From NCBI RefSeq assembly GCF_004519335.1, contig NZ_SOZD01000002.1:806001-870000 (forward strand): a stretch of 64,000 nt of DNA, read 5' to 3'. Numbering within the stretch: the first letter of the stretch is position 1; the number at the start of each line of letters is the position of its first letter. Source of the stretch: Jiella endophytica (GTDB lineage Bacteria; Pseudomonadota; Alphaproteobacteria; Rhizobiales; Rhizobiaceae). The position numbers and the translations under genes were made by a program. The notes beneath the pieces are model-generated. The model saw only the letters and a program-made list of their open reading frames with translations. It ran no database searches and had not been told where the DNA came from. This document shows positions 46,888 to 57,624 of the stretch, piece after piece.

Positions 46888-48012
46888 TCAGCTCCGCTCG
46901 TGCAGCGGGTGGGTGCGCAGGCGCAGCGGGTCGTAGAAGGGTGTGCGCACGACATGGGCCGCGAAGGTTCCTGCGGCGGAACGGACCTCCAGCGCCGTGC
47001 CGAGGCCGGACAGCGACGGTTCGACATGGCAGAGCGCCAGCGACTTCATCAGATAACGGCTCCAGGTCGTCGAATTGACCGAGCCCACCTTGCGGCCGCC
47101 GTCGAAAATTCCGGCGCCCGGCTCGATCGCGACGGAAGCGTCGATCTCGACGCCGACCTGGGCGCAGCGGACCTCGCCCTTTCGCCGTTCGAGCGCCGCC
47201 TTGCCATGAAAGTCCGGCTTGCCGAGATCGACGGTCCAGTCGGCGCCGACTTCCCAGGGAGTCGTGTCGCCTTCCGGCATGTCGAAAGGAAAGAACAGCA
47301 GCGCCCCTTCGACCCGGACGATGTCGAGGCAAGCCCAGGAGACCGGGATGGCGCCCGCCGGCGCGCCCGCTTCGAGGATCGCGTCCCACAAAGCGACGGC
47401 GTCATTGCGGCTGCAGAACACCTCGTAGCCGAGCTCGGCGGAATAGCCGCCGCGGCCGATCGAGACCGGCGTGCCGAAGAGCTCGGTCGGCCGATGCTCG
47501 AAATAGGAGAGCGTCGCGAGATCCATCGGCGTGTGCGGATCGAGGATCGCCAGGGACAGCGGGCCCTGGAGCGAGAGGATGTGGACGTCGTCGTTCTTTG
47601 CCCAGCTGGCGTCGCGGCCGGAGAAGAATTCGTCGATGACGCTCTCGAGGTCGCCGCCGCCGTGGGAGAGGCGGAAGCTGTCGAGCCCGTCGCGATAGAC
47701 GAGGACGTCATCGATCAGCGAGCCATCGGCGTCGACGATGTTGGAGATCGCCGACTGGCCGGGCGCCATGGCGCCGACATTCGAGGTGAGCATGGCATCG
47801 AGCGCCGCGGCCGCCTCCGGCCCAGACACGTCGATCATCCGCAGCGCCGAGACGTCGAACAGACCGGCCCTGGTGCGCACGGCCACCACCTCGTCGTCGG
47901 GATCGGTGGCGTAGGTCTGCGGCAGCGCCATGCCGTTCCATTCGCCGTCGAGAGACGAGCCGAGGGCGCGGTGGCGCGCTTCAAGCTCCGAATGCCGGGT
48001 GATCTCAACCAT
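46888..48012 (-). CDS. GcvT-like aminomethyltransferase of the dimethylamine operon
   Basis: Folate-dependent GcvT-family protein of 374 residues. Visible are VAVRTRAGLFDVSALRMIDV, SGPEAAAALDAMLTSNVGAM, the folate-site stretch GGYSAELGYEVFCSRNDAVA and VEGALLFFPFDMPEGDTTPW, ending in the GcvT C-terminal barrel. As the last gene after heme-type N-demethylase, reductase and small subunit genes, it most likely traps formaldehyde from demethylation as methylene-tetrahydrofolate. GcvT-like proteins accompany dimethylamine monooxygenase genes in marine bacteria. ATG 48012 follows GAGGAGG. Confidence 0.82.
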   Translation of the reverse strand: MVEITRHSELEARHRALGSSLDGEWNGMALPQTYATDPDDEVVAVRTRAGLFDVSALRMIDVSGPEAAAALDAMLTSNVGAMAPGQSAISNIVDADGSLIDDVLVYRDGLDSFRLSHGGGDLESVIDEFFSGRDASWAKNDDVHILSLQGPLSLAILDPHTPMDLATLSYFEHRPTELFGTPVSIGRGGYSAELGYEVFCSRNDAVALWDAILEAGAPAGAIPVSWACLDIVRVEGALLFFPFDMPEGDTTPWEVGADWTVDLGKPDFHGKAALERRKGEVRCAQVGVEIDASVAIEPGAGIFDGGRKVGSVNSTTWSRYLMKSLALCHVEPSLSGLGTALEVRSAAGTFAAHVVRTPFYDPLRLRTHPLHERS

Positions 48013-48142
48013 CGCCAGTGCCTCCTCGAGTTGGTCCCTGCGGACACAGCCCGGCCTGTCGCCGCGGTGCTGCGCGTCGTCGCCATTCTTCTCTGCGGAA
48101 AGCATCGCGGCCGGGCGGCGGCAGGCGCCGTCCGGCGCATCG

Positions 48143-49198
48143 TCAATCCGGGTAGAAACCCGGCGAAGTGGGCGCGCCGTCGTCGTGGCGCGACAGCCAG
48201 TCGACGGTCATGCCCCGATAGTTCGTCAGCCCTTTGTAGTCGGCGAGGTCGTCCGGCAGGTCGCGCAGCACGCGGTGCAGCCGCCGCGCCCATTTCGGCA
48301 CCGTCGCCACCTCGCGCATCTTGATGAGGTAGCAGCGGATCGAGAACACGATGGCGTTCGAGCGTGGCAGCCGCCACAGCGCCTGCAGCTCGACCCTCAG
48401 ATGCACCTTGTCGCCGACATTGTCGGGCGTCACCGTGGTGCGGTCGATGCCCCAGCGGTGATAATTCTCGGGGCTGGTGTCGAGGCGCGGATTGATCGTC
48501 ATCGTCCAGTTCAGCCGGCGGATCGGCCGGCCGAGCTGCAGGTTCAGGAGAAACTTCAGCGCCCGCTCGAACACGCCCATGTCGTGGGCCCGCGGCACCG
48601 GCGCGTGCCATTCGATGAAATTCATGCCGAGGTCGAAATCGAGCGACCAGTCGGCCTGGCTGGTGACGATGCCGGAATCGAGCCAGAGATTGTCGCCGCG
48701 CTGGTCGAGCAGGCAGAAGTCGCCCTGGCACTGGCGGGTGATGTATTCCATCGGCCCGTAGGGCAGCGTCGCGACGTCGCCGAAGGTGAAATGCTCCTCG
48801 ATGCCCATCGGCCGGTTGATCCAGTGCCAGCGGTCACCCTCGCGGCCGAGCGCGAACCACGCCGGATAATCCCGCGCCATCGAGGTCATCAGCAGCTCGA
48901 GGAGATCCCATTCGGCGGTGATCATGTGGGGCAGCGACTGGCATCGCAGCGGATCCTCGGCGAGCACCCTTTCGCGATCAGCCATCTCGGCGACGTAGTG
49001 CTCGTCGATGTCGATCGGGAAATGCGTCGCGTGCTTTTCCGGCCCCGGCATGTGCTGCTCGATATTGACCGCATACATGTACTGGTCGCGATCGAAGGGG
49101 AACGGGAAGCGTCGGATCGCCTCTTGCGAATTTGCGAAAGTGAAGTCGTCGCGAAACGTTTCCTGTCTGAAGAAGCCGGGGTCGAGGGCGAGTGACAT
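48143..49198 (-). CDS. Heme-dependent oxidative N-demethylase alpha-type subunit (DUF3445)
   Basis: A 351-residue DUF3445 protein, the catalytic subunit type of dimethylamine monooxygenases (Dmm). Distinctive parts are RFPFPFDRDQYMYAVNIEQH MPGPEKHATHFP, the central EHFTFGDVATLPYGPMEYIT and WHAPVPRAHDMGVFERALKF, and WTMTINPRLDTSPENYHRWG. The probable reaction is dimethylamine + O2 + NADPH to methylamine + formaldehyde. The letters used for Dmm subunits differ between reports, so I give no symbol. It lies 18 bp after the reductase gene. Confidence 0.85.
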   Translation of the reverse strand: MSLALDPGFFRQETFRDDFTFANSQEAIRRFPFPFDRDQYMYAVNIEQHMPGPEKHATHFPIDIDEHYVAEMADRERVLAEDPLRCQSLPHMITAEWDLLELLMTSMARDYPAWFALGREGDRWHWINRPMGIEEHFTFGDVATLPYGPMEYITRQCQGDFCLLDQRGDNLWLDSGIVTSQADWSLDFDLGMNFIEWHAPVPRAHDMGVFERALKFLLNLQLGRPIRRLNWTMTINPRLDTSPENYHRWGIDRTTVTPDNVGDKVHLRVELQALWRLPRSNAIVFSIRCYLIKMREVATVPKWARRLHRVLRDLPDDLADYKGLTNYRGMTVDWLSRHDDGAPTSPGFYPD

Positions 49199-49216: not shown

Positions 49217-50176
49217 TCAGAGATCGAGGACGAGTTCGCGGCCCTTGAGGCGCGACATGCAGATCATGATCTTCTCGCCGGCCCGCCGCTCCTCCGAAGA
49301 GAGGAAGTGGTCGCGATGGTCGATCTCGCCGTCGGCCCCGAGAACCTCGCACAGGCATTCGCCGCAGGCGCCGCCCCGGCAGAGATAAGGCGCTTCGACG
49401 CCGATCTGCTCGATCGCCTCGAGCAGGCTCTCGTGCTCGCCGACGGTGGTCGATTTCTTGGAGCGGGCGAGAAACACCTCGAACGGGTCGCCCCCGGCCG
49501 GCGCCTGGAAGCGCTCGGCATGGAGGTTTGCCTCGGGCCAGCCGGCGCTCCGGGCATCGGCGAGAACGGCTTCGATCATCCGTTCCGGGCCGCAGACGTA
49601 AAGATGCGTGCCGAGCGGCTGATGCGGGATGATCTCCTTCACCCGCAACCGCTCCTGCCTTTCGGTGGAATAAAGCCGCATGCGCGGCCCATGACGCGCG
49701 AGAAGGTCGCGGCAGAAGGCACCCTCGGTCTCGCTGCGAACCGCATAGTGCAGTTCGAAGGAGGCGCCCTGACGGGCGAGTTCCTCCGCCATCGCCGCGA
49801 TCGGGGTGATGCCGATGCCGCCGGCGACGAGCACGTGATGGTGGGCGAGACGATAAAGCGGGAAGAGATTGACCGGCGCCGAGACGGTGAGTTCGTCGCC
49901 TTCCCGCAGCCGATCGTGGATGAAGGCCGAGCCGCCGCGCGACGTCGGCGAGCGCTGCACGGCGATCTCCCAGCTTTCGCCGGAAAGGCTGGGGGCCGTC
50001 AGCGAATAGGCGTTTCTGACGAGGCGGCCGCCGGTCTCGAAGCTGACCACGGTGTGGGCGCCGGCGGAAACCGGCGGCAGAAGTCCGGCATCGGCTGGCC
50101 CGAGGCGCAGGCGCCGCACCCCGGGGGTGACGGCCTCGGCCTCGACGACGCGGACTGTGTAGTGGCTGGCGCTCAT
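49217..50176 (-). CDS. Phthalate-dioxygenase-reductase-type FMN/2Fe-2S reductase of Dmm
   Basis: A 319-residue electron-transfer partner for the N-demethylase. Flavin-binding RNAYSLTAPS, NADPH-binding LVAGGIGITPIAAMAEELAR and LYVCGPERMIEAVL precede a C-terminal plant-type [2Fe-2S] domain with CRGGACGECLCEVLG plus a distal Cys in KIMICMSRLKG. This is the FMN-NAD-[2Fe-2S] order of phthalate dioxygenase reductases. ATG 50176 lies 4 bp after the preceding gene's stop; the frame extends 16 codons into that gene. Confidence 0.88.
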   Translation of the reverse strand: MSASHYTVRVVEAEAVTPGVRRLRLGPADAGLLPPVSAGAHTVVSFETGGRLVRNAYSLTAPSLSGESWEIAVQRSPTSRGGSAFIHDRLREGDELTVSAPVNLFPLYRLAHHHVLVAGGIGITPIAAMAEELARQGASFELHYAVRSETEGAFCRDLLARHGPRMRLYSTERQERLRVKEIIPHQPLGTHLYVCGPERMIEAVLADARSAGWPEANLHAERFQAPAGGDPFEVFLARSKKSTTVGEHESLLEAIEQIGVEAPYLCRGGACGECLCEVLGADGEIDHRDHFLSSEERRAGEKIMICMSRLKGRELVLDL

Positions 50177-50180
50177 CCGC

Positions 50181-50756
50181 TCAGAAACTCGCTGCCGCGG
50201 GGAGGTCCCCCGGTGCTTCGGCATCGACGCAGACGCCCATGAAGGCGCCGAGCCGGCGGGAATAGTGATCGCGGACCATCAGATTGACGCCGCAATGGCG
50301 GCACGCGACCGGGCTCGCCGAAACGTCGTCCATCATCCCCTTGCAGTGGACGCACTGCACCCGGCGCGCCGGATCGCCGCAAAGCTCGGTGGTCAGGCCG
50401 TCGCCGACGACGCCGCAGCCGTGGGCGAGCGCGCTCGCTTCGTTCAAGAAGGCTTCGCTGCCGGCGAGATGAAGCTGGGTTCCCATCTTCGCCCGGCCGA
50501 GATGGGCGCGAAAGGCTGTCAGCGCCGTCGCCCGGCTTGGCAGAGGGTGATAGGCGACGCCTGCAAGGCTCGCCGGTGCGCCGGCATCACCCTCGGCGAC
50601 GTGGACGAGGATGGTCTTGCCGATGACCTCCGGCCGGCCCGCAAAAGCTCTCGCCACAGCATCGATCGCACCGCGCTCCGCACAGACGAGATGGGCCGAG
50701 GCCTGCTTGGCAGGATCGAGCTTGCCCCATTTCGGCCGGCTCTTGATCTCGGGCAC
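50181..50756 (-). CDS. Small dimethylamine monooxygenase subunit with zinc-ribbon tail
   Basis: A 191-residue protein. The N-terminal part (LVCAERGAIDAVARAFAGRP, ILVHVAEGDAG) has no catalytic motif. The C-terminus carries two CxxC pairs, VQCVHCKGMMDDV and VACRHCGVNLMV, forming a probable zinc ribbon or rubredoxin-like metal site, then DHYSRRLGAFMGV. In known dmm operons a small subunit of this type accompanies the DUF3445 protein and the reductase. First gene of the operon, directly behind a sigma-70-like promoter. Confidence 0.78.
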   Translation of the reverse strand: MPEIKSRPKWGKLDPAKQASAHLVCAERGAIDAVARAFAGRPEVIGKTILVHVAEGDAGAPASLAGVAYHPLPSRATALTAFRAHLGRAKMGTQLHLAGSEAFLNEASALAHGCGVVGDGLTTELCGDPARRVQCVHCKGMMDDVSASPVACRHCGVNLMVRDHYSRRLGAFMGVCVDAEAPGDLPAAASF

Positions 50757-50788
50757 GGATACGGTTCCTTCACCTAAAAGAATATTGC

Positions 50789-50823
50789 TTTCTTCAGAGT
50801 ACTCAAATCGCTCTGGCTGTCAA
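50789..50823 (-). promoter_or_regulatory. Promoter and candidate operator of the dimethylamine operon
   Basis: On the minus strand TTGACA (50823-50818), 16-base spacer, TACTCT (50801-50796). Overlapping the -10 box on the plus strand is TTTCTTCAGAGTACTCAAA (50789-50807), containing the perfect palindrome GAGTACTC. Eleven of its first 12 bases match the motif found upstream of the XRE-cupin gene, whose mgsA counterpart is very similar. This position fits a repressor site. Confidence 0.5.
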
Positions 50824-50918
50824 AGCGAATCCGACAATTTCGGAGCAATTTTATCACCTGCACAAATTTTGATCGCGAGATGATGCAGGCCGCGGCATTC
50901 CCCGAACGCTCGGTCCGC

Positions 50919-51239
50919 TCACTCCATGGCGATCAGCTTGAGACCGACGATCCCCGCGGCGATCATCGCGATGCAGCCGAGCCGGAGCAGATTGGCTGGC
51001 TCGCCGAAGAGCGCGATGCCCATCGCGGCCGTGCCGATCGTCCCGATCCCCGCCCAGACCCCGTAAGCCGTGCCGACCGGCAGGCTCTTCAGCGACCAGT
51101 TCAGGAGAGTGAGGCTGACGATGATGAGGAGGACGGTGACGACGCTCGCCAGCGGCCGGGTGAAGCCCTCCGACCACTTCATGGCGAGCGCCCAGGCCAC
51201 CTCGAGAATGCCTGCCAGAAACAGCGCCACCCAGGCCAT
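50919..51239 (-). CDS. gdx: Small multidrug resistance exporter, Gdx/SugE type
   Basis: A 106-residue four-helix SMR protein. The conserved glutamate is in LAGILEVAWALAMKWSEGFT, and the SEGFTR and GTAYGVWAGIGTIGTAAMG segments point to the guanidinium-exporter (Gdx, formerly SugE) branch more than to EmrE/QacE. Gdx proteins export guanidinium and small alkyl-guanidinium ions as antiparallel dimers. It starts 40 bp after gmaS ends on the same strand and precedes the promoter of the dimethylamine operon, so it is probably co-transcribed with gmaS. No guanidine riboswitch is visible upstream. Confidence 0.8.
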   Translation of the reverse strand: MAWVALFLAGILEVAWALAMKWSEGFTRPLASVVTVLLIIVSLTLLNWSLKSLPVGTAYGVWAGIGTIGTAAMGIALFGEPANLLRLGCIAMIAAGIVGLKLIAME

Positions 51240-51278
51240 TGCGAGAAACCCTTCCGGCGGGAGACGATGATCGACGGG

Positions 51279-52586
51279 TCAGATGTCGAGGGTCGTCTCG
51301 CGCTCCCACTGGGTGAAATGCCGGCAATAGCTGTTCCACTCGTCGTGTTTCAGCCTGGCATAGGCGGCGGAGAATTCCGCGCCGAGGGCGCTTGTCAGCC
51401 CCTCATCGGCCTCGAAGGCACGCAGGGCGTCGAGGAGGTTCAGCGGCAGCTTCGGCGCGTCGGTCAGCGCGTGGCCGTCCTTGTACATGTCGATGTCGCT
51501 GTGCGGCCCCGGATCGGCCGAGGTCTCGAGCCCGTCGAGGCCTGCGGCGATGATCACCGCCTGGAGGAGATAGGGGTTGGTGGCGCCGTCCGGCAGCCTG
51601 AGCTCGAAGCGGCCCGGGCCAGGCACGCGCACCATGTGGGTGCGGTTGTTGCCGGTCCAGGTGATCGAGTTCGGCGCCCAGGTCGCGCCGGAGACGGTGC
51701 GCGGCGCGTTGATCCGCTTAAAGGAATTGACCGTCGGGTTGGTGATCGCCGCAAGCGCCGGCCCGTGCTTCATGATGCCGCCGAGAAACGCCTTGCCCTG
51801 CCTGGACAGCCCGAAGGGCTGGCCCTCGTCGGCAAAGGCGTTGGTCTTGCCCTCGGCATCCCAGACCGAGACGTGGCAATGGCAGCCATTGCCGGTGAGG
51901 CCGGCGAAGGGCTTCGGCATGAAGGTCGCGCGGAGCCCGTGCTTCTCGGCGATCGAGCGGACCATGAACTTGAAGAAGGAGTGCTTGTCGGCGGTGGCGA
52001 GAGCATCGTCGAAGGCCCAGTTCATCTCGAACTGGCCATTGGCGTCCTCATGGTCGTTCTGATAGGGGCTCCAGCCGAGCGCCAGCATGTGGTCGCAGAT
52101 CTCGGCGACGACGTCGTAGCGGCGCATCACCGCCTGCTGGTCGTAGCAGGGCTTTTCCGCCGTATCGAAGACGTCCGAGATCGCCTTGCCGTCCGCTTCG
52201 AGCAGGAAGAACTCGGCCTCGACGCCGGTCTTCACCCTGAGGCCCTTCTCAGCCGCCGCCTCGACGAGACTCTTCAGGACGATCCGCGGCGCCTGGGCGA
52301 CGGGCGCGCCTTCCATCGCAAGATCGGCTGGAACCCAGGCGACCTCGGGCTTCCACGGCAGCTGAATGACAGAATCGGCATCCGGCATGGCGAAGAGGTC
52401 GGGATGGGCCGGAGTGAGGTCGAGCCAGGTGGCAAAGCCGGCAAAGCCGGCGCCATCCGCCTGCATCTCGCCGATCGCCTGGGCGGGGACGAGCTTTGCC
52501 CGCTGCGCCCCGAACAGGTCGGTGAACGAGATCATGAAATATTTGACGCCGTTCTTCTTGGCGAAAGCGGAAAGATCGCTGGTCAT
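51279..52586 (-). CDS. gmaS: Gamma-glutamylmethylamide synthetase (GlnT/glutamine synthetase III-like)
   Basis: ATP-dependent ligase of the glutamine synthetase fold, 435 residues. Metal and glutamate sites are visible in VEAEFFLLEAD, DHEDANGQFEMNWAF, GLTGNGCHCHVSVWD, NSFKRINAP, WTGNNRTHMVRVPGPGRFEL and RLPDGATNPYLL. GlnT-type proteins in this order were first called glutamine synthetase III, but those next to mgsABC join methylamine to glutamate. The adjacent mgs and dimethylamine genes make that the likely reaction: methylamine + glutamate + ATP to gamma-glutamylmethylamide. Confidence 0.88.
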   Translation of the reverse strand: MTSDLSAFAKKNGVKYFMISFTDLFGAQRAKLVPAQAIGEMQADGAGFAGFATWLDLTPAHPDLFAMPDADSVIQLPWKPEVAWVPADLAMEGAPVAQAPRIVLKSLVEAAAEKGLRVKTGVEAEFFLLEADGKAISDVFDTAEKPCYDQQAVMRRYDVVAEICDHMLALGWSPYQNDHEDANGQFEMNWAFDDALATADKHSFFKFMVRSIAEKHGLRATFMPKPFAGLTGNGCHCHVSVWDAEGKTNAFADEGQPFGLSRQGKAFLGGIMKHGPALAAITNPTVNSFKRINAPRTVSGATWAPNSITWTGNNRTHMVRVPGPGRFELRLPDGATNPYLLQAVIIAAGLDGLETSADPGPHSDIDMYKDGHALTDAPKLPLNLLDALRAFEADEGLTSALGAEFSAAYARLKHDEWNSYCRHFTQWERETTLDI

Positions 52587-52742
52587 GGTCCCCCAATGGC
52601 TCCTCGATGAAAGGTCTCAAGGGCGCCGCCTCCCGGCGGCCCCGCTTATGCTGTGGGGTCCGCCTCGCTGGAACCGCCGCTACGCGGCCCCGGCCGTCTT
52701 CCGATCGTCCTGTCCTGCCGTCGTCTTCCTTGCCTGGTCCGG

Positions 52743-52760
52743 AAGGCGGATCACCGCCTT
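52743..52760 (-). terminator. Weak terminator-like hairpin after mgsC
   Basis: Perfect stem AAGGCGG / CCGCCTT with a four-base loop, 13 bp beyond the mgsC stop, but without a following U run. The interval to gmaS (187 bp) also holds a GC-rich hairpin near 52632-52654. It may attenuate read-through from mgsABC into gmaS. Confidence 0.35.
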
Positions 52761-52773
52761 GCCGGAACGATCG

Positions 52774-54102
52774 TCAGATCCCGGTCCTGCCGGGAATCCA
52801 GCTGGTGCCGGCAAGCGGTACCTGCGCCATCGCGGCCGCCTCGATGGTCAGCGCGACGAGGTCTTCCGGCTCGAGATTGTGGAGATGGTTGTGGCCGCAG
52901 GCCCGGGCGATGGTCTGGGCCTCCAGCGTGATCACCTTCAGATAGTTGGCGAGGCGCCGGCCGGCCGCGACCGGATCGAGCCGCGAGGCCAGCGCCGGAT
53001 CCTGCGTGGTGATGCCGGCCGGGTCCTTGCCCTCGTGCCAGTCGTCATAGGCCCCGGCGGTGGTGCCGAGGGCGGCATAATCCGCCTCCCATTTCGGGTC
53101 GTTGTCGCCGAGCGCGACGAGGGCGGCGGTGCCGACCGAGACCGCGTCGGCGCCGAGCGCCAGGGCCTTGGCGACGTCGGCGCCAGAGCGGATGCCGCCC
53201 GAGACGACGAGCTGTACCTTGCGATGCAGCCCCAGATCCTGCAGCGCCTGGACCGCCGGGCGGATGCAGGCGAGGATCGGCTGGCCGACATGCTCGATGA
53301 AGACGTCCTGTGTCGCCGCGGTGCCGCCCTGCATGCCGTCGATGACGACGACGTCGGCTCCGGCCTTAACCGCCAGCGCGGTGTCGTAATAGGGCCTTGC
53401 GCCGCCGACCTTGATGTAGATCGGCTTTTCCCAGTCGGTGATCTCGCGCAGTTCGAGGATCTTGATCTCGAGATCGTCCGGCCCGGTCCAGTCGGGATGC
53501 CGGCAGGCCGAACGCTGGTCTATCCCTTTGGGAAGCGTGCGCATCTCGGCGACGCGGTCGGAGATCTTCTGGCCGAGCAGCATGCCGCCGCCGCCGGGCT
53601 TGGCGCCCTGGCCGATGACGATCTCGATGGCATCGGCGCGGCGAAGGTCCACCGGGTTCATACCGTAGCGCGACGGCAGATACTGATAGACCAGGAGTTC
53701 GGAATGGCCGCGCTCCTCGTCGGTCATGCCGCCGTCGCCGGTGGTCGTCGAGGTGCCGGAAAGCGTCGCGCCGCGGCCGAGCGCCTCCTTGGCGGCGCCG
53801 GAGAGCGCGCCGAAGCTCATGCCGGCGATGGTGACGGGGATCTTCAATTCGATCGGCTTCTTCGCATAGCGCGTGCCGAGGGTGACCGAGGTGTCGCAGC
53901 GCTCGCGATAGCCTTCGAGCGGGTATCGCGACATCGAGGCGCCGAGAAACAAAAGGTCGTCGAAATGCGGCACATGGCGCTTGGTACCGCCGCCGCGGAT
54001 GTCGTAGATGCCGGTCGCCGCGGCGCGGCGGATCTCGGCGAGCGAGGCGTCGTCGAAGGTCGCGGACTTTCGCGGCGGGGTCGGCGGGTTGTGATAGGTC
54101 AT
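52774..54102 (-). CDS. mgsC: N-methylglutamate synthase subunit C (GltB-type FMN domain)
   Basis: A 442-residue protein equivalent to the FMN-binding synthase domain of glutamate synthase (GlxD of sinorhizobia). Visible are PVTIAGMSFGALSGAAKEAL, GTSTTTGDGGMTDEERGHSE, IVIGQGAKPGGGGMLLGQKI and VVIDGMQGGTAATQDVF, with a [3Fe-4S]-like Cys context near CGHNHLHNLEPEDL. With MgsA and MgsB it transfers the methylamino group of gamma-glutamylmethylamide to 2-oxoglutarate, giving N-methylglutamate. Confidence 0.87.
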   Translation of the reverse strand: MTYHNPPTPPRKSATFDDASLAEIRRAAATGIYDIRGGGTKRHVPHFDDLLFLGASMSRYPLEGYRERCDTSVTLGTRYAKKPIELKIPVTIAGMSFGALSGAAKEALGRGATLSGTSTTTGDGGMTDEERGHSELLVYQYLPSRYGMNPVDLRRADAIEIVIGQGAKPGGGGMLLGQKISDRVAEMRTLPKGIDQRSACRHPDWTGPDDLEIKILELREITDWEKPIYIKVGGARPYYDTALAVKAGADVVVIDGMQGGTAATQDVFIEHVGQPILACIRPAVQALQDLGLHRKVQLVVSGGIRSGADVAKALALGADAVSVGTAALVALGDNDPKWEADYAALGTTAGAYDDWHEGKDPAGITTQDPALASRLDPVAAGRRLANYLKVITLEAQTIARACGHNHLHNLEPEDLVALTIEAAAMAQVPLAGTSWIPGRTGI

Positions 54103-54123
54103 GGCTTGGCGCGAACTCCCGCC

Positions 54124-54810
54124 TCAATAGGCGTCGGCATTGTCGATGTTGAAGTTGTAGAGCCGGCGGGCCGAGCCGTAGCGGCGAAATTCCTCCGGCC
54201 TCGCGCCGCTCATGCCGGCGTCGGAGAGAAGCCGATCGAGTGTCGTCAGATGCTCCGGCCGCATCTCCTTCTCGACGCAGTCGGCACCGAGGCTCTTCAC
54301 CTTGCCGCGCACGAAGAGCTTCGCCTCGTAGAGCGAATCCCCCAGCGCCTCGCCGGCATCGCCGAAGACGACGAGATGTCCCGACTGGCCCATGAAGGCC
54401 GACATGTGGCCGATATTGCCGCCGACGACGATGTCGATCCCCTTCATCGAGATGCCGCAGCGCGACGAGGCATTGCCCTTGATGACCAGGAGGCCGCCGC
54501 GACCGGTAGCGCCGGCATATTGCGAGGCGTCGCCTTCGACGATGATCCGGCCCGACATCATGTTCTCGCCGACGCCGGGACCGGCCGAGCCGTGGATGAC
54601 GATCTCGGCGGCGGCGTTCATCCCGCCGCAATAGTATCCGACCGGGCCGTGCACGGTAACGGTGACCGGTGCGGCGCAGCCGACGGCCACCGCATGGCTG
54701 CCGCGAGGATTGCGCACCTCGAAGCTGCGATCGTTGGCGCCCTGCCCGATCGCATGGAGAGCCTGGTTGAGATCGCGGATCGGCGTGGTGGCAAGGTCGA
54801 ATGCGGGCAT
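54124..54810 (-). CDS. mgsB: N-methylglutamate synthase subunit B (GXGXG domain)
   Basis: A 228-residue protein made of a GltB C-terminal GXGXG beta-helix domain. Repeating turns such as VTVHGPVGYYCGGMNAAAEI, VIHGSAGPGVGENMMSGRII, GDASQYAGATGRGGLLVIKG and VGGNIGHMSAFMGQSGHLVV are the hallmark. It acts structurally between the amidotransferase and synthase subunits. I start at ATG 54810 (MPAFDLATTPIRDLNQALHA), 16 bp after mgsA; longer starts would run into the mgsA coding region. Confidence 0.87.
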   Translation of the reverse strand: MPAFDLATTPIRDLNQALHAIGQGANDRSFEVRNPRGSHAVAVGCAAPVTVTVHGPVGYYCGGMNAAAEIVIHGSAGPGVGENMMSGRIIVEGDASQYAGATGRGGLLVIKGNASSRCGISMKGIDIVVGGNIGHMSAFMGQSGHLVVFGDAGEALGDSLYEAKLFVRGKVKSLGADCVEKEMRPEHLTTLDRLLSDAGMSGARPEEFRRYGSARRLYNFNIDNADAY

Positions 54811-54826
54811 CGTCGCGTCTCTTCGT

Positions 54827-55753
54827 TCAGGCGGCCAGGGCACTGCCTGCGGCCGCCGAGCGGTCCCAGAAATAGACCGAGGCGGGTTCCGGCTCCCATA
54901 CCCTGGCGTCGTCGATGCCCGGCAGGCCGACGAGGGCGCGATATTCCGAGCCGAAGGCGACATATTGCCGGGTCTCGGCCATCACCGCCGGCTTGCAGGC
55001 GATCGGATCGCGCAAGACACCGAAGCCGGTCCTGGTACCGACGACGAAGGTGAAGAAGCCGTCGAGATCGGCGAGCCCCGCCTCCAGAGCCTCGCCGAGA
55101 TTGCGCCCCTCCTTCATCCTGGCGGTGAGATAGGCGGCGGCGACCTCGGAATCGTTCTCGGTCTCGAAGCGGATGCCGGCGCGGGAAAGCTCGCGACGCA
55201 GATTGTTGTGGTTCGACAGCGAACCGTTATGGACAAGGCACTGGTCGGGGCCGGTCGAGAACGGGTGGGCGCCGAGCGTCGTCACCGCCGATTCCGTCGC
55301 CATGCGGGTGTGGCCGATGCCGTGGGTGCCGCGCATGGTCCGGATATCGAAGCGCGAGACGACCTCCTTCGGCAGACCGGTCTCCTTGTAGATCTCGATC
55401 GTCTCGCCGGTGCTCATGATCCTGAAACCCTGCGGCGCGGCCTGCAGCGCATCGCGCAGGGCGTCGACGGCGCTGGTCGCAAGCTCGACGACGGCATGGG
55501 TGTCCTTGATGCGGACGCTCGCGCTCTCGCCGGCGACCTTGCGGGCGAGCGCCTCGAGATCGGCGAATGCGGTGCTGGGTGCGTCGGCTTGGAACGTCAC
55601 CTTCGAGCGCCCCGCAACGGCATCTCCATAGATCGCGATACCGGCCGAATCCGGCCCGCGGTCGGTCATGGTGACGAGCATGTCGGAGAGCAGCGCGCCG
55701 AGCCGATCCTCCAGCGCGCGATCCTTCAGAAACAATCCCACGATGCCGCACAT
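54827..55753 (-). CDS. mgsA: N-methylglutamate synthase subunit A (glutamine amidotransferase)
   Basis: Class II (Ntn) amidotransferase of 308 residues that hydrolyses the amide of gamma-glutamylmethylamide. The nucleophile is Cys2, exposed after Met removal: MCGIVGLFLKDRALEDRLGA. This sets the start at ATG 55753. Other motifs are MLVTMTDRGPDSAGIAIYG, THGIGHTRMATESAVTTLGA HPFS and LVHNGSLSNHNNLRRELSR. First gene of mgsABC, downstream of the XRE-cupin gene and of its own promoter. Confidence 0.87.
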   Translation of the reverse strand: MCGIVGLFLKDRALEDRLGALLSDMLVTMTDRGPDSAGIAIYGDAVAGRSKVTFQADAPSTAFADLEALARKVAGESASVRIKDTHAVVELATSAVDALRDALQAAPQGFRIMSTGETIEIYKETGLPKEVVSRFDIRTMRGTHGIGHTRMATESAVTTLGAHPFSTGPDQCLVHNGSLSNHNNLRRELSRAGIRFETENDSEVAAAYLTARMKEGRNLGEALEAGLADLDGFFTFVVGTRTGFGVLRDPIACKPAVMAETRQYVAFGSEYRALVGLPGIDDARVWEPEPASVYFWDRSAAAGSALAA

Positions 55754-55788
55754 GGCCGCCGCTCCGCCCTCGTCTTCCATCAGACGAG

Positions 55789-55828
55789 ACTATGGCAGAC
55801 GACGACCCCCGGATCAACTCTCAGGAAA
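55789..55828 (-). promoter_or_regulatory. mgsA promoter and candidate operator
   Basis: On the minus strand TTGATC (55817-55812), 17-base spacer, CATAGT (55794-55789). The -35 box is embedded in GATCAACTCTCAGGAAA (plus strand 55812-55828), which matches 14 of 17 bases with the element upstream of the XRE-cupin regulator. Confidence 0.5.
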
Positions 55829-55869
55829 CATATTTTCTTGCGAAGGGTGGCGGCCGATCGGATGGGAGG

Positions 55870-56559
55870 TCAGCCGACCCGCCCCTGCTGTGGATAGCAG
55901 ATGATCGACAGATAGCGCGCCGGCAGCTTCACCAGCTCTTCCGGCCCGTGCGGCGCGTCGGCATCGAAGAAGAAGCTGTCGCCCGGCCGCATGTGATAGC
56001 GGCTGTCGGCATGGCGATAGACCACCTCTCCCTCCAGCATGTAGAGGAACTCCATCCCGTCGTGCTGGAAGGTAGGGAAGACGTCGGAATCGGTGGTCAG
56101 AGTGATCAGATAGGGCTCGACCGTCACACCACTGGTGTTGTTGCCGATATGGCCGAGGAGATTGTACTGGTGGCCGGCGCGGGTGCCCCGCCGCTCCAGT
56201 TCGACCCCCTCGCCGGCCTTGACGAAGACTGCGTTGCGGGTCTCCTCGAAGCGCCGGAAGAAGGCCGTCAGCGGCACGCCGAGGGCGCGCGACAGCGCCT
56301 GCAGCGTCGTCAGCGACGGCGAGATGTTGCCGTTTTCGATCTTCGACAGCATGCCGAGCGAGACCCCCGTCGCCGAAGCGAGATCGCTGACGGTAATGCC
56401 GAGCTTCTTGCGGAAAGCGCGAACCTCGTGGCCGATCGCCGCCTCGAGATTGTTCTCCTTGGCTTCGCGAATGGCATGCGGGTCCTGGGTCAGGGCAGAG
56501 CTCGTCGTTGTCACCGGCGCCTCGCTCGTCCGCGATTGTCTGGCGCTCGATTCGGACAT
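55870..56559 (-). CDS. XRE-cupin transcriptional regulator of the methylamine genes
   Basis: A 229-residue regulator. An N-terminal disordered tail (1-35) precedes a Cro/C1 helix-turn-helix (about 40-100: VRAFRKKLGITVSDLASATG VSLGMLSKIENGNISPSLTT) and a C-terminal cupin (about 130-225: FPTFQHDGMEFLYMLEGEVV, YRHADSRYHMRPGDSFFFDA, DAPHGPEEL). Cupin-fused XRE proteins commonly sense a small metabolite. It is transcribed towards mgsABC and shares an upstream motif with mgsA and the dimethylamine operon, so it is the best candidate for the local regulator. Confidence 0.87.
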   Translation of the reverse strand: MSESSARQSRTSEAPVTTTSSALTQDPHAIREAKENNLEAAIGHEVRAFRKKLGITVSDLASATGVSLGMLSKIENGNISPSLTTLQALSRALGVPLTAFFRRFEETRNAVFVKAGEGVELERRGTRAGHQYNLLGHIGNNTSGVTVEPYLITLTTDSDVFPTFQHDGMEFLYMLEGEVVYRHADSRYHMRPGDSFFFDADAPHGPEELVKLPARYLSIICYPQQGRVG

Positions 56560-56609
56560 GGCTGAAACTCCGTCATTTGCTCCCTGCTGCTATCGCCGCG
56601 GTGAAGGAA

Positions 56610-56626
56610 TTTCAACTCTGAGGAAA
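56610..56626 (-). promoter_or_regulatory. Candidate operator upstream of the XRE-cupin gene
   Basis: Pseudo-palindrome TTTCAACTCTGAGGAAA (plus strand), with outer arms TTTC/GAAA, 51 bp upstream of the regulator's ATG. It overlaps the region just before the GlxA-type gene's stop codon. Matching elements lie upstream of mgsA and of the dimethylamine operon. Confidence 0.5.
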
Positions 56627-56628
56627 AT

Positions 56629-57624
56629 CTATCCCCCGGCCCTCCGCAGGCCGGATGGCGAAAGCCCCGTCGCCGCCCGGACCGTGCGAGCGAAATGCGA
56701 CGGGCTGGCAAAGCCGGTGGCGAGAGCGACCTGCGAGATGTCGAGCGGGCTCTGGCGGAGCAGCCGGATGGCGTGGCGCAGGCGGATCTCGCGATAGACG
56801 TCGGCGACGCTCCGACCGAGATGGCCGGCAAACAGCCGGTCGAGCTGGCGCGGCGAGACCCCGGCATAGCGGGCGATCTCGGCCCTCGACAGCGGCGCCT
56901 CGATGACCGCCTCCATCCGCTCCAGCGCCGCGAGGAGCGGCGGCCGGTGGACGCCATAGCGTTCCGCCAGCGCGGCGCGCTGGGGCGCTGAGGCTTCGCC
57001 GATCTCGGTGTGGAGGAACCAGTCGGACACCCGGCGGGCGAAGGCAGAGCCCATCCGCTCGGAAATCAGCGCATGCATCATGTCGAGGGGCGCGACGCCG
57101 CCGCCGCAGGTGAGCCTGTCGCGATCGAGGACGTAGCGGGCCTGTCGCGGCGAGAGTTCCGGAAAGGTCTCCTTGAGGGCGGCCGCATGCTCCCAGTGGA
57201 TGGTGAAATCGCGGTCGAAGAGGACGCCGGCGGCGGCGAGGACGAAGGCGCCGCCGGAAATGCCGCCGAGCCGCGTGCCGCTGCGCGACAGCCGGCGCAG
57301 CGCCGAATGGACCTCCGGCGAAGCCCAGCCGGCCGGCCGGCCGCCAGCGCAGACGAACAGCGCCGAAAGCTCAGGCGAGGCGTCGCGGATGGGCTCTGTC
57401 TCGATCCCGATACCGGACGAGGAGGCGACGTTGCCGCCTTCCGCGCCGAAATGGCGGATGCGGTAGAGCGCGCGGCCGGCGAGGAGATTGGCCGCCCGCA
57501 GCGGCTCGGCCGCGCTCGCAAAGGACATCAGGGCGAAACCCGGCAGGAGCGCGAAGCCGAATTCCCGGGTCGCAAGGGTCGGATGGCCAGCCCGTGGCTC
57601 GGGCTCTGCGCTCGATCGCGTCAA
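56629..57624 (-). CDS. GlxA-type AraC-family regulator
   Basis: A 331-residue regulator with an N-terminal DJ-1/PfpI-like domain (about 20-190: FGFALLPGFALMSFASAAEP, LGGISGGAFVLAAAGVL) and a C-terminal AraC DNA-binding domain with two helix-turn-helices (SRAEIARYAGVSPRQLDRLF and ISQVALATGFASPSHFARTV). In Sinorhizobium the equivalent gene is glxA beside glxBCD, the mgs-like genes. The start is TTG 57624 behind GGAGAGACAT; the frame is open far upstream, but only as the antisense of the FAD oxidoreductase gene. Divergent from that gene, which it may control. Confidence 0.82.
   Translation of the reverse strand: MTRSSAEPEPRAGHPTLATREFGFALLPGFALMSFASAAEPLRAANLLAGRALYRIRHFGAEGGNVASSSGIGIETEPIRDASPELSALFVCAGGRPAGWASPEVHSALRRLSRSGTRLGGISGGAFVLAAAGVLFDRDFTIHWEHAAALKETFPELSPRQARYVLDRDRLTCGGGVAPLDMMHALISERMGSAFARRVSDWFLHTEIGEASAPQRAALAERYGVHRPPLLAALERMEAVIEAPLSRAEIARYAGVSPRQLDRLFAGHLGRSVADVYREIRLRHAIRLLRQSPLDISQVALATGFASPSHFARTVRAATGLSPSGLRRAGG

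Follow-up and report, generated by a model that had tools for sequence, protein, structure and literature searches.

Predicted paired operators associate an XRE-cupin protein with methylated-amine genes in Jiella endophytica

We analysed a window of 64,000 nucleotides from Jiella endophytica (assembly GCF_004519335.1, contig NZ_SOZD01000002.1, positions 806,001 to 870,000). The minus strand of this window carries, in order, genes for a GlxA-type AraC regulator, an XRE-cupin protein (xre), mgsA-B-C, gmaS, a SugE-like transporter and a dimethylamine monooxygenase operon (DmmA-family, reductase, N-demethylase and GcvT-like genes; Table 1). We use mgs, gmaS and dmmA-D as working labels, which we assume from gene order and pathway knowledge, and the gmaS product is taken on the same grounds to be gamma-glutamylmethylamide synthetase. 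We propose, with a probability of roughly 0.75, that the XRE-cupin protein is a dedicated regulator of methylated-amine use that acts via paired operators at three promoters.

Table 1. Operator sites, promoter elements and genes of the locus (positions within the window; R3 is a model described in the text)
Feature	Coordinates	Strand	Basis or remark
xre, HTH_3 + Cupin_2 regulator, 229 aa	55870..56559	-	Pfam HTH_3 3.7e-16, Cupin_2 1.2e-12
xre operator 1	56611..56625	-	TTCCTCAGAGTTGAA; contains most of the putative -35 TTGAAA (56610-56615); top single site of the window (matrix scan)
xre operator 2	56591..56605	-	TTCACCGCGGCGATA; 20 bp downstream of operator 1; touches the putative -10 region (56587-56592)
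mgsA operator A	55834..55848	-	ACCCTTCGCAAGAAA; weak in this genome, score 0.4; within R3 match
mgsA operator B	55813..55827	-	TTCCTGAGAGTTGAT; score 11.2; contains most of the putative -35 TTGATC (55812-55817)
Putative mgsA -10	55789-55794		CATAGT
Dimethylamine-operon operator A	50789..50803	-	AGTACTCTGAAGAAA; score 5.6; over the putative -10 TACTCT (50796-50801)
Dimethylamine-operon operator B	50768..50782	-	TTCTTTTAGGTGAAG; score 14.8, ranks second among single sites in the window; lies in the leader near the likely ribosome-binding site, 21 bp downstream of A; within R3 match
Putative dimethylamine-operon -35	50818-50823		TTGACA
mgsA, class II glutamine amidotransferase part of N-methylglutamate synthase	54827..55780	-	GATase_6 3.6e-21
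mgsB (GXGXG domain)	54124..54813	-	domain scan
mgsC (Glu_synthase domain)	52774..54102	-	domain scan
gmaS, type III glutamine synthetase-like	51279..52586	-	TIGR03105 671 bits, cut-off 469.6
SugE-like small multidrug transporter	50919-51239	-	between gmaS and the dimethylamine operon
dmmD (working label), DmmA-family subunit, first gene of the dimethylamine operon	50181..50756	-	PF22289, PF22290, NF041259
dmmC (working label), ferredoxin-type reductase subunit	49217..50224	-	Fer2, NAD_binding_1
dmmA (working label), haem-dependent oxidative N-demethylase subunit	48143..49198	-	PF11927 2.9e-70
dmmB (working label), GcvT-like tetrahydrofolate-binding subunit	46888..48105	-	GCV_T 3.7e-59
GlxA-type AraC regulator, outside the proposed regulon	56632..57621	-	HTH_18, HTH_AraC, DJ-1_PfpI

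The regulator is an XRE-cupin protein, with an N-terminal HTH_3 domain (59.3 bits, cut-off 23) and a C-terminal Cupin_2 domain (47.8 bits, cut-off 27.2). An AraC helix-turn-helix (HTH) domain was absent from its domain scan list, in which AraC_binding, a cupin-like domain, was the only match of that kind. The top NCBIfam model was PuuR (NF007408), at 66.5 bits against a cut-off of 211, and we therefore placed the protein outside the PuuR family. PuuR, the XRE-cupin repressor of the gamma-glutamylputrescine pathway of Escherichia coli, has the same HTH_3 plus cupin layout. It controls the glutamine synthetase-like gamma-glutamyl-amine ligase PuuA, whose counterpart here would be GmaS; its operator and substrate probably differ from those of the present protein. 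Around xre and among the genes with operators there are mgs, gmaS and dimethylamine genes and no puu genes. PuuR is also called a repressor in passages of a biosensor paper (PMC9951944).

A preliminary description of this DNA had pointed to three elements, TTTCAACTCTGAGGAAA (56610-56626) before xre, GATCAACTCTCAGGAAA (55812-55828) before mgsA and TTTCTTCAGAGT (50789-50800) before the dimethylamine operon. These were recovered as given, including the identity of the first two at 14 of 17 positions and of the third to the reverse complement of the first at 11 of 12. The core TCAACTCTSAGGAAA, common to the first two sites, has two exact matches in the 5,251,375-base genome, both of them the reported sites. 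Looser matches numbered 0 at one mismatch, 7 at two and 75 at three (84 in total versus 16 for a reversed control). The loose matches are therefore background and the exact pair is not; the background frequency that the preliminary description had named as refuting is not seen for the exact motif. Within the window, four matches with at most three mismatches were seen where 1.3 were expected; four were reached in 6 of 100 shuffles, and this count is weak alone.

The reported sites are real, but the 17-mer is an incomplete unit, and the third element had been read in another register. We dropped the single 17-mer as the operator in favour of a tandem arrangement: pairs of 15-bp pseudo-palindromes of the family consensus TTyaCTnnnAGtrAA, 20-21 bp apart. 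Because such operators are pseudo-palindromes, the opposite orientation ascribed to the third element means little, and a reading of its sense strand aligns by eye with the mgsA footprint. The mgsA element does cover the putative -35 box, as had been stated, and the TTGA of the xre element is a putative -35 box as well. Likewise, the third element lies over a -10 box, its AGAGT being the complement of part of the putative TACTCT. The -35, -10 and dyad of the dimethylamine operon are present also in two further loci (L061 and L062). As described before, no such element was seen upstream of gmaS: no separate footprint was visible there by eye, and the window scan gave no pair scoring at least 19.5.

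For comparison we used 80 loci (L061-L140), the xre-homologue matches listed from one scan of genome contigs, which returned at least 80. In addition, 151 related genomes were searched for xre, mgsA and AraC with ortholog cuts of 300, 200 and 370 bits that we set ourselves, and mgsA-upstream regions were collected from the genus, family and order (35 of 36 usable; L174, with 85 bases, was too short). Among the matches listed, the nearest relatives of the XRE-cupin protein are from Jiella species (88-92% identity). Many Rhizobiales share the gene order xre-mgsABC-gmaS. In Mesorhizobium, xre is found close to the dimethylamine operon.

The mgsA promoters (79 distinct upstreams) show GAA-N7-TTC upstream of a TTGA -35 and a TGnTA -10. 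The six letters are nearly invariant (G 78, A 78, A 79, T 79, T 79 and C 79 of 79), in an alignment made on a consensus that itself contains them. GAA-N7-TTC-N-T was found in 21 of the 35 further mgsA upstreams and missed in several distant families and in both mgsA homologues of genome G150. We rejected this dyad as the mgsA operator: it is highly conserved, yet AAGAAN7TTCYT occurs at genome background (13 distinct exact places; 365 matches at no more than one mismatch versus 446 in the control), and its outer position pairs in 27 of 62 cases against 22.2 by chance, which is chance level or little more.

A different reading emerged from a matrix of 17 distinct palindromes taken from upstream of xre genes that lack mgsA as their downstream neighbour (two congeners share one of the 17). 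When it was moved along 110 mgsA promoters, this matrix gave a mean of 0.3 at offset -8 and of -2.3 and -1.3 at offsets 12 and 13; offset -7 gave -3.1, offset -9 gave -7.1 and the remainder -12.7 or less. The peaks are 20-21 bp apart, so the mgsA footprint is readable as two xre-type operators, and the invariant GAA-N7-TTC can be read as their facing arms.

Before xre genes that precede mgsA, the footprint TTTCnTCnnnGTTGA...TTCACnnnnnnGATAG recurs (28 rows score at least 23, of which 22 were aligned). Unlinked xre genes have one strong palindrome, TTYACYnnnRGTRAA, in 33 of 50 distinct upstreams (score at least 18, with a matrix built from those same sites). Orthologous mgsA genes thus keep the motif upstream, and so do some of the orthologous regulator genes; the lack of conservation that the preliminary description had named as refuting is not seen. 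A further block resembling AAATTTCACTGASAGGACAGTAATT recurs in Mesorhizobium far upstream of xre, at about -255 (e.g. L085, L129), and looks like one operator.

To score whole pairs we used a pooled matrix that contains no sequence of this genus and no dimethylamine promoter. The background was 4,450 masked tiles with a 99th percentile of 16.1. It replaced a first background of 1,261 upstreams of open reading frames (99th percentile 22.7), which probably contained target promoters on the other strand; with that one, 0 of 32 dimethylamine promoters lay above the 99th percentile and 25 of 32 above the 95th. The top-ranking place in the window was the xre promoter (27.2), followed by the dimethylamine promoter (22.0; sense strand 20.4); the next other place scored 16.4. 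In 60 shuffled windows, 27.2 was reached by none and 22.0 by two. At the 80 listed loci, 60 of 66 mgsA and 33 of 80 xre promoters reached 16.1, most of these sequences having trained the matrix; of 21 mgsA promoters (two from the genus) that resembled no training pair at 80% or more, 19 passed. Of the dimethylamine promoters, 25 of 32 also reached the threshold. At L061-L140, 29 pairs that lie in neither xre nor mgsA promoters scored at least 19.5, and 17 of these lie upstream of dimethylamine operons (15 of the 17 in Mesorhizobium).

The scores depend on the spacing of the two sites. For mgsA the mean best pair score peaked at 21 bp (23.5), with 19.8 at 20 bp and 4.1-15.2 elsewhere; the xre promoters peaked at 20 bp (13.3), and the dimethylamine promoters at 20 bp (17.8) with a shoulder at 18-19 bp. 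This dependence argues against the idea that the shared letters are mainly conserved sigma-70 elements (an AT-rich upstream element, the -35 TTGA and the -10) and form no operator. That idea can draw on the position of the TTGA in xre operator 1 and mgsA operator B, at the putative -35, on the -10-like TGnTA that follows in mgsA promoters and on the higher scores of AT-rich tiles. The most invariant columns of the mgsA promoters, however, are GAA and TTC, upstream of the -35; the dimethylamine operators lie away from the -35, one of them downstream of the predicted start; and the palindromes before unlinked xre genes are no promoter boxes. We consider a promoter-only origin of the shared letters very unlikely.

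Three sequence-only models were then run on the genome: R1 (mgsA footprint), R2 (xre footprint) and R3 (tandem pairs), all made without this genome and with congeners. The rows of A1 were all 68 distinct 23-mers from 78 loci, with the window excluded and congeners included. Those of A2 were 22 of the 28 scoring at least 23, after exclusion of five near-duplicates and the window; one row was entered one base longer, and seven of these 22 training rows of R2 are from congeners. For A3, 83 of 105 assembled rows were kept (58 of 76 mgsA, 18 of 21 xre and 7 of 8 dimethylamine), near-duplicate or weaker rows having been removed by hand, so that R3 leans to clear sites. Three matrix-found pairs (L109, L090, L137) were added to the 83. 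A3 contains sites of congeners, among them the dimethylamine pairs from L061 and L062, and excludes those of the window.

At E ≤ 10, R1 matched only the mgsA promoter (E 1.16; 150 of 208 first-look candidates scored), R2 only the xre promoter (33.2 bits, E 2.7e-7, 56590-56626; 150 of 959 scored) and R3, in the whole 5.25 Mb, only the mgsA (E 0.07) and dimethylamine (E 0.42) promoters (104 of 104 scored). The sites, their spacing, their conservation and the exclusive matches of the models to these promoters in the genome are thus computational observations. They give the picture of a local regulon, with an operator in the promoter of the regulator and the same operator at targets and at few other places in the genome. 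An operator in the own promoter is not universal, as the counts of 33 of 80 listed xre upstreams with a tandem pair and 33 of 50 unlinked ones with a single palindrome indicate.

Within the genus, R3 matched the mgsA promoter in 9 of 9 mgsA genomes and the dimethylamine promoter in five (G000, G001, G002, G003, G005). The congener G007, which is without xre and mgsA orthologues, gave zero R3 matches. Five further weak matches in the genus lie elsewhere (two in G009 and one each in G003, G005 and G006). Over the 151 genomes, R3 had a match at E ≤ 0.2 in 49, located at the mgsA promoter in 29 of 46 mgsA genomes; most of the other matches looked like AT-rich chance. The three-promoter regulon put forward in the preliminary description is well supported by this comparative genomics.

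Co-occurrence bears on the identity of the binding protein. Of the 151 genomes, 46 have mgsA, 51 have xre and 45 have both (Fisher p = 1.2e-30); in G004 and G009, the two genes lie on separate contigs. The HTH stretches of regulators with either operator type are identical to that of the window protein at 54-64 of 65 positions in 11 of 12 cases, the twelfth being missed by the pattern. We infer that the XRE-cupin protein is the binder of the operators.

The other candidate is the GlxA-type AraC neighbour, which would bind the conserved element while the XRE-cupin protein acted elsewhere. Its gene is the immediate upstream neighbour of xre in the window and at many loci of Rhizobium and Agrobacterium, and it adjoins mgsA in Ensifer. 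Moreover, the placement of the mgsA operators at and upstream of the -35 suits an activator, and a paper on Ruegeria pomeroyi reports that an AraC protein, TmaR, binds the dmm and gmaS-mgs promoters (PMC13390433). An AraC orthologue (> 370 bits) is present in 19 of the 151 genomes, 18 of them with mgsA, and is absent from 28 of the 46 mgsA genomes. Nevertheless, the operator (at least 16.1) is kept in 24 of 27 examined mgsA promoters from AraC-less genomes versus 11 of 18 with AraC. Six of the 28 AraC-less genomes have a distant homologue of 250-302 bits (G010, G030, G047, G074, G120, G150); without the five of these that were examined, the operator is kept in 21 of 22 promoters. The congeners G004, G008 and G009 have only an AraC paralogue (182-196 bits), yet the mgsA and xre footprints are kept (14.6 in G008). 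Finally, the matrix that recognises the mgsA sites derives from xre promoters. Binding by the AraC protein instead of the XRE-cupin protein is, in our estimation, quite unlikely.

Several results weigh against control of the three promoters by the XRE-cupin protein. The TTGA (-35) and GATA (-10) parts might owe their conservation to promoter function. Forty-seven of the 80 xre upstreams of listed loci fall below the threshold for a tandem pair, and several xre upstreams show neither tandem footprint nor palindrome. AT-rich tiles (n = 187) score higher than the others (95th percentile 17.8, 99th 21.6), and AT-rich small genomes yield chance R3 matches, nine in G052. The mgsA pair of the window itself scores 13.2 with the genus-free matrix, below three chance-looking places, because its operator A is weak. 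Of the 25 dimethylamine matches, 21 are from Mesorhizobium and close kin; the others are L061, L065, L090 and L135, and that of L135 is the site of a divergent xre gene. The misses are three of four Rhizobium loci as well as L062, L080, L089 and L132. R1 did not find the dimethylamine site genome-wide, and R3 found it only at E 0.42 with the sites of two congeners in training. As 150 of 208 and 150 of 959 candidates were scored, the term "only match" is limited accordingly for R1 and R2. The sole mgsA genome without xre, G150, has a pair score of 15.0 before one mgsA homologue and -2.7 before the other, and therefore provides no clean negative.

By the proposed mechanism, the XRE-cupin protein would bind its own promoter, the mgsABC-gmaS promoter and the promoter of the dimethylamine operon. 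Since the operators are pseudo-palindromic, the binding units would be dimers; a spacing of 20-21 bp, about two helical turns, would set two of them next to each other on the same face of the helix, and we infer that they bind cooperatively. Without inducer, the protein would repress its own promoter and the dimethylamine promoter. The cupin domain would sense a pathway compound, possibly gamma-glutamylmethylamide, N-methylglutamate or methylamine, and repression would be lifted. Lambda CI and Cro, regulators of the HTH_3 type, likewise act on closely spaced operators, covering one promoter and adjoining another. Unlike the XRE-cupin protein, CI and Cro have no ligand-binding cupin, and their operator spacing is larger.

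Relative to the predicted starts, the operator centres lie at about -38/-18 (xre), -59/-38 (mgsA) and -7/+15 (dimethylamine operon), as reckoned by hand from predicted boxes. The operators cover the -35 and -10 at xre, lie over and upstream of the -35 at mgsABC-gmaS and cover the -10 and start at the dimethylamine operon. The repression suggested in the preliminary description thus fits the placement at xre and the dimethylamine operon, while the mgsA geometry fits a repressor or an activator. The predicted mgsA transcription start is near 55782. The real mgsA translation start is probably the ATG at 55753, 27 bases within the longest frame (MCGIVG, with the N-terminal Cys nucleophile).

A dual regulator is to be considered: from the operators centred near -59 and -38 it would switch on mgsABC-gmaS, and xre and the dimethylamine operon would be repressed. 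The predicted boxes give a suitable geometry, the mgsA -35 is conserved only as TTGA, and lambda CI, with the same kind of HTH, both represses and activates. However, operator B lies over the mgsA -35 and is also suited to repression. Such a dual action is possible, although we lean against it.

A close functional parallel is TmaR, an AraC-type master regulator of trimethylamine catabolism in R. pomeroyi. According to PMC13390433, it controls the dmm and gmaS-mgs operons, binds its own promoter and responds to an effector downstream of methylamine. The operons controlled and the binding to the own promoter are as proposed for the XRE-cupin protein, whereas TmaR belongs to the AraC family and is mainly an activator; the words "XRE" and "cupin" are absent from the main text of that paper. 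XRE and glxA genes are reported to recur in Rhodobacteraceae clusters for tri-, di- and monomethylamine, in a route with folD and purU, and passages of that report name neither operator nor target of the XRE gene (PMC7574528). In Sinorhizobium meliloti, glxA is called a regulator of the glx operon near glnT and suggested to inhibit that operon (PMC5596199); a passage of PMC8292978 contained nothing relevant. Searches of open-access literature turned up no paper in which an XRE-cupin operator or regulator is named for the N-methylglutamate or dimethylamine pathways. Many bacteria use these pathways as nitrogen and carbon routes, and the combination of a regulator, a defined double operator, targets and conservation across genomes permits the design of binding and reporter tests at single-base level.

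Further operator pairs were found before purU (L109:10728-10763, a S. meliloti contig), formate-tetrahydrofolate ligase (L220:1482-1511), folD (L137:19588-19623, L221:1480-1514, L222:1453-1482) and an amino-acid permease gene (L090). L137 and L221 look closely related and are therefore not independent. The products of purU, folD and the formate-tetrahydrofolate ligase gene would carry methyl groups onward. In its widest form, the proposal would be that one XRE-cupin protein runs the Rhizobiales route from methylated amines to tetrahydrofolate-bound one-carbon units through phased double operators, the sign being set by where they lie, with repression of itself and of the dimethylamine operon, activation of N-methylglutamate synthesis and operators at folD, purU and formate-tetrahydrofolate ligase added in some lineages. 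It would then be a non-AraC counterpart of the marine TmaR. We regard this extended scheme as doubtful.

Matches inside genes or before uninformative genes were dropped (L065 at 164, L070, L086, L088, L134, L210, L215-L217 and L223). The SugE-like gene is found at the same position in congeners (L061, G003) and not in the L062 locus. Two pairs at loci of unlinked xre homologues (L107:2289-2323 and L126:2557-2591) lie, by eye, upstream of a membrane-dipeptidase-like gene, perhaps as a second regulon of a paralogue. A weak pair (L224:1434-1461, equivalent to G006:C37:11633-11660; E 3.5) lies about 95 bp upstream of an ABC substrate-binding-like gene, on a contig of G006 that also bears xre and mgsA.

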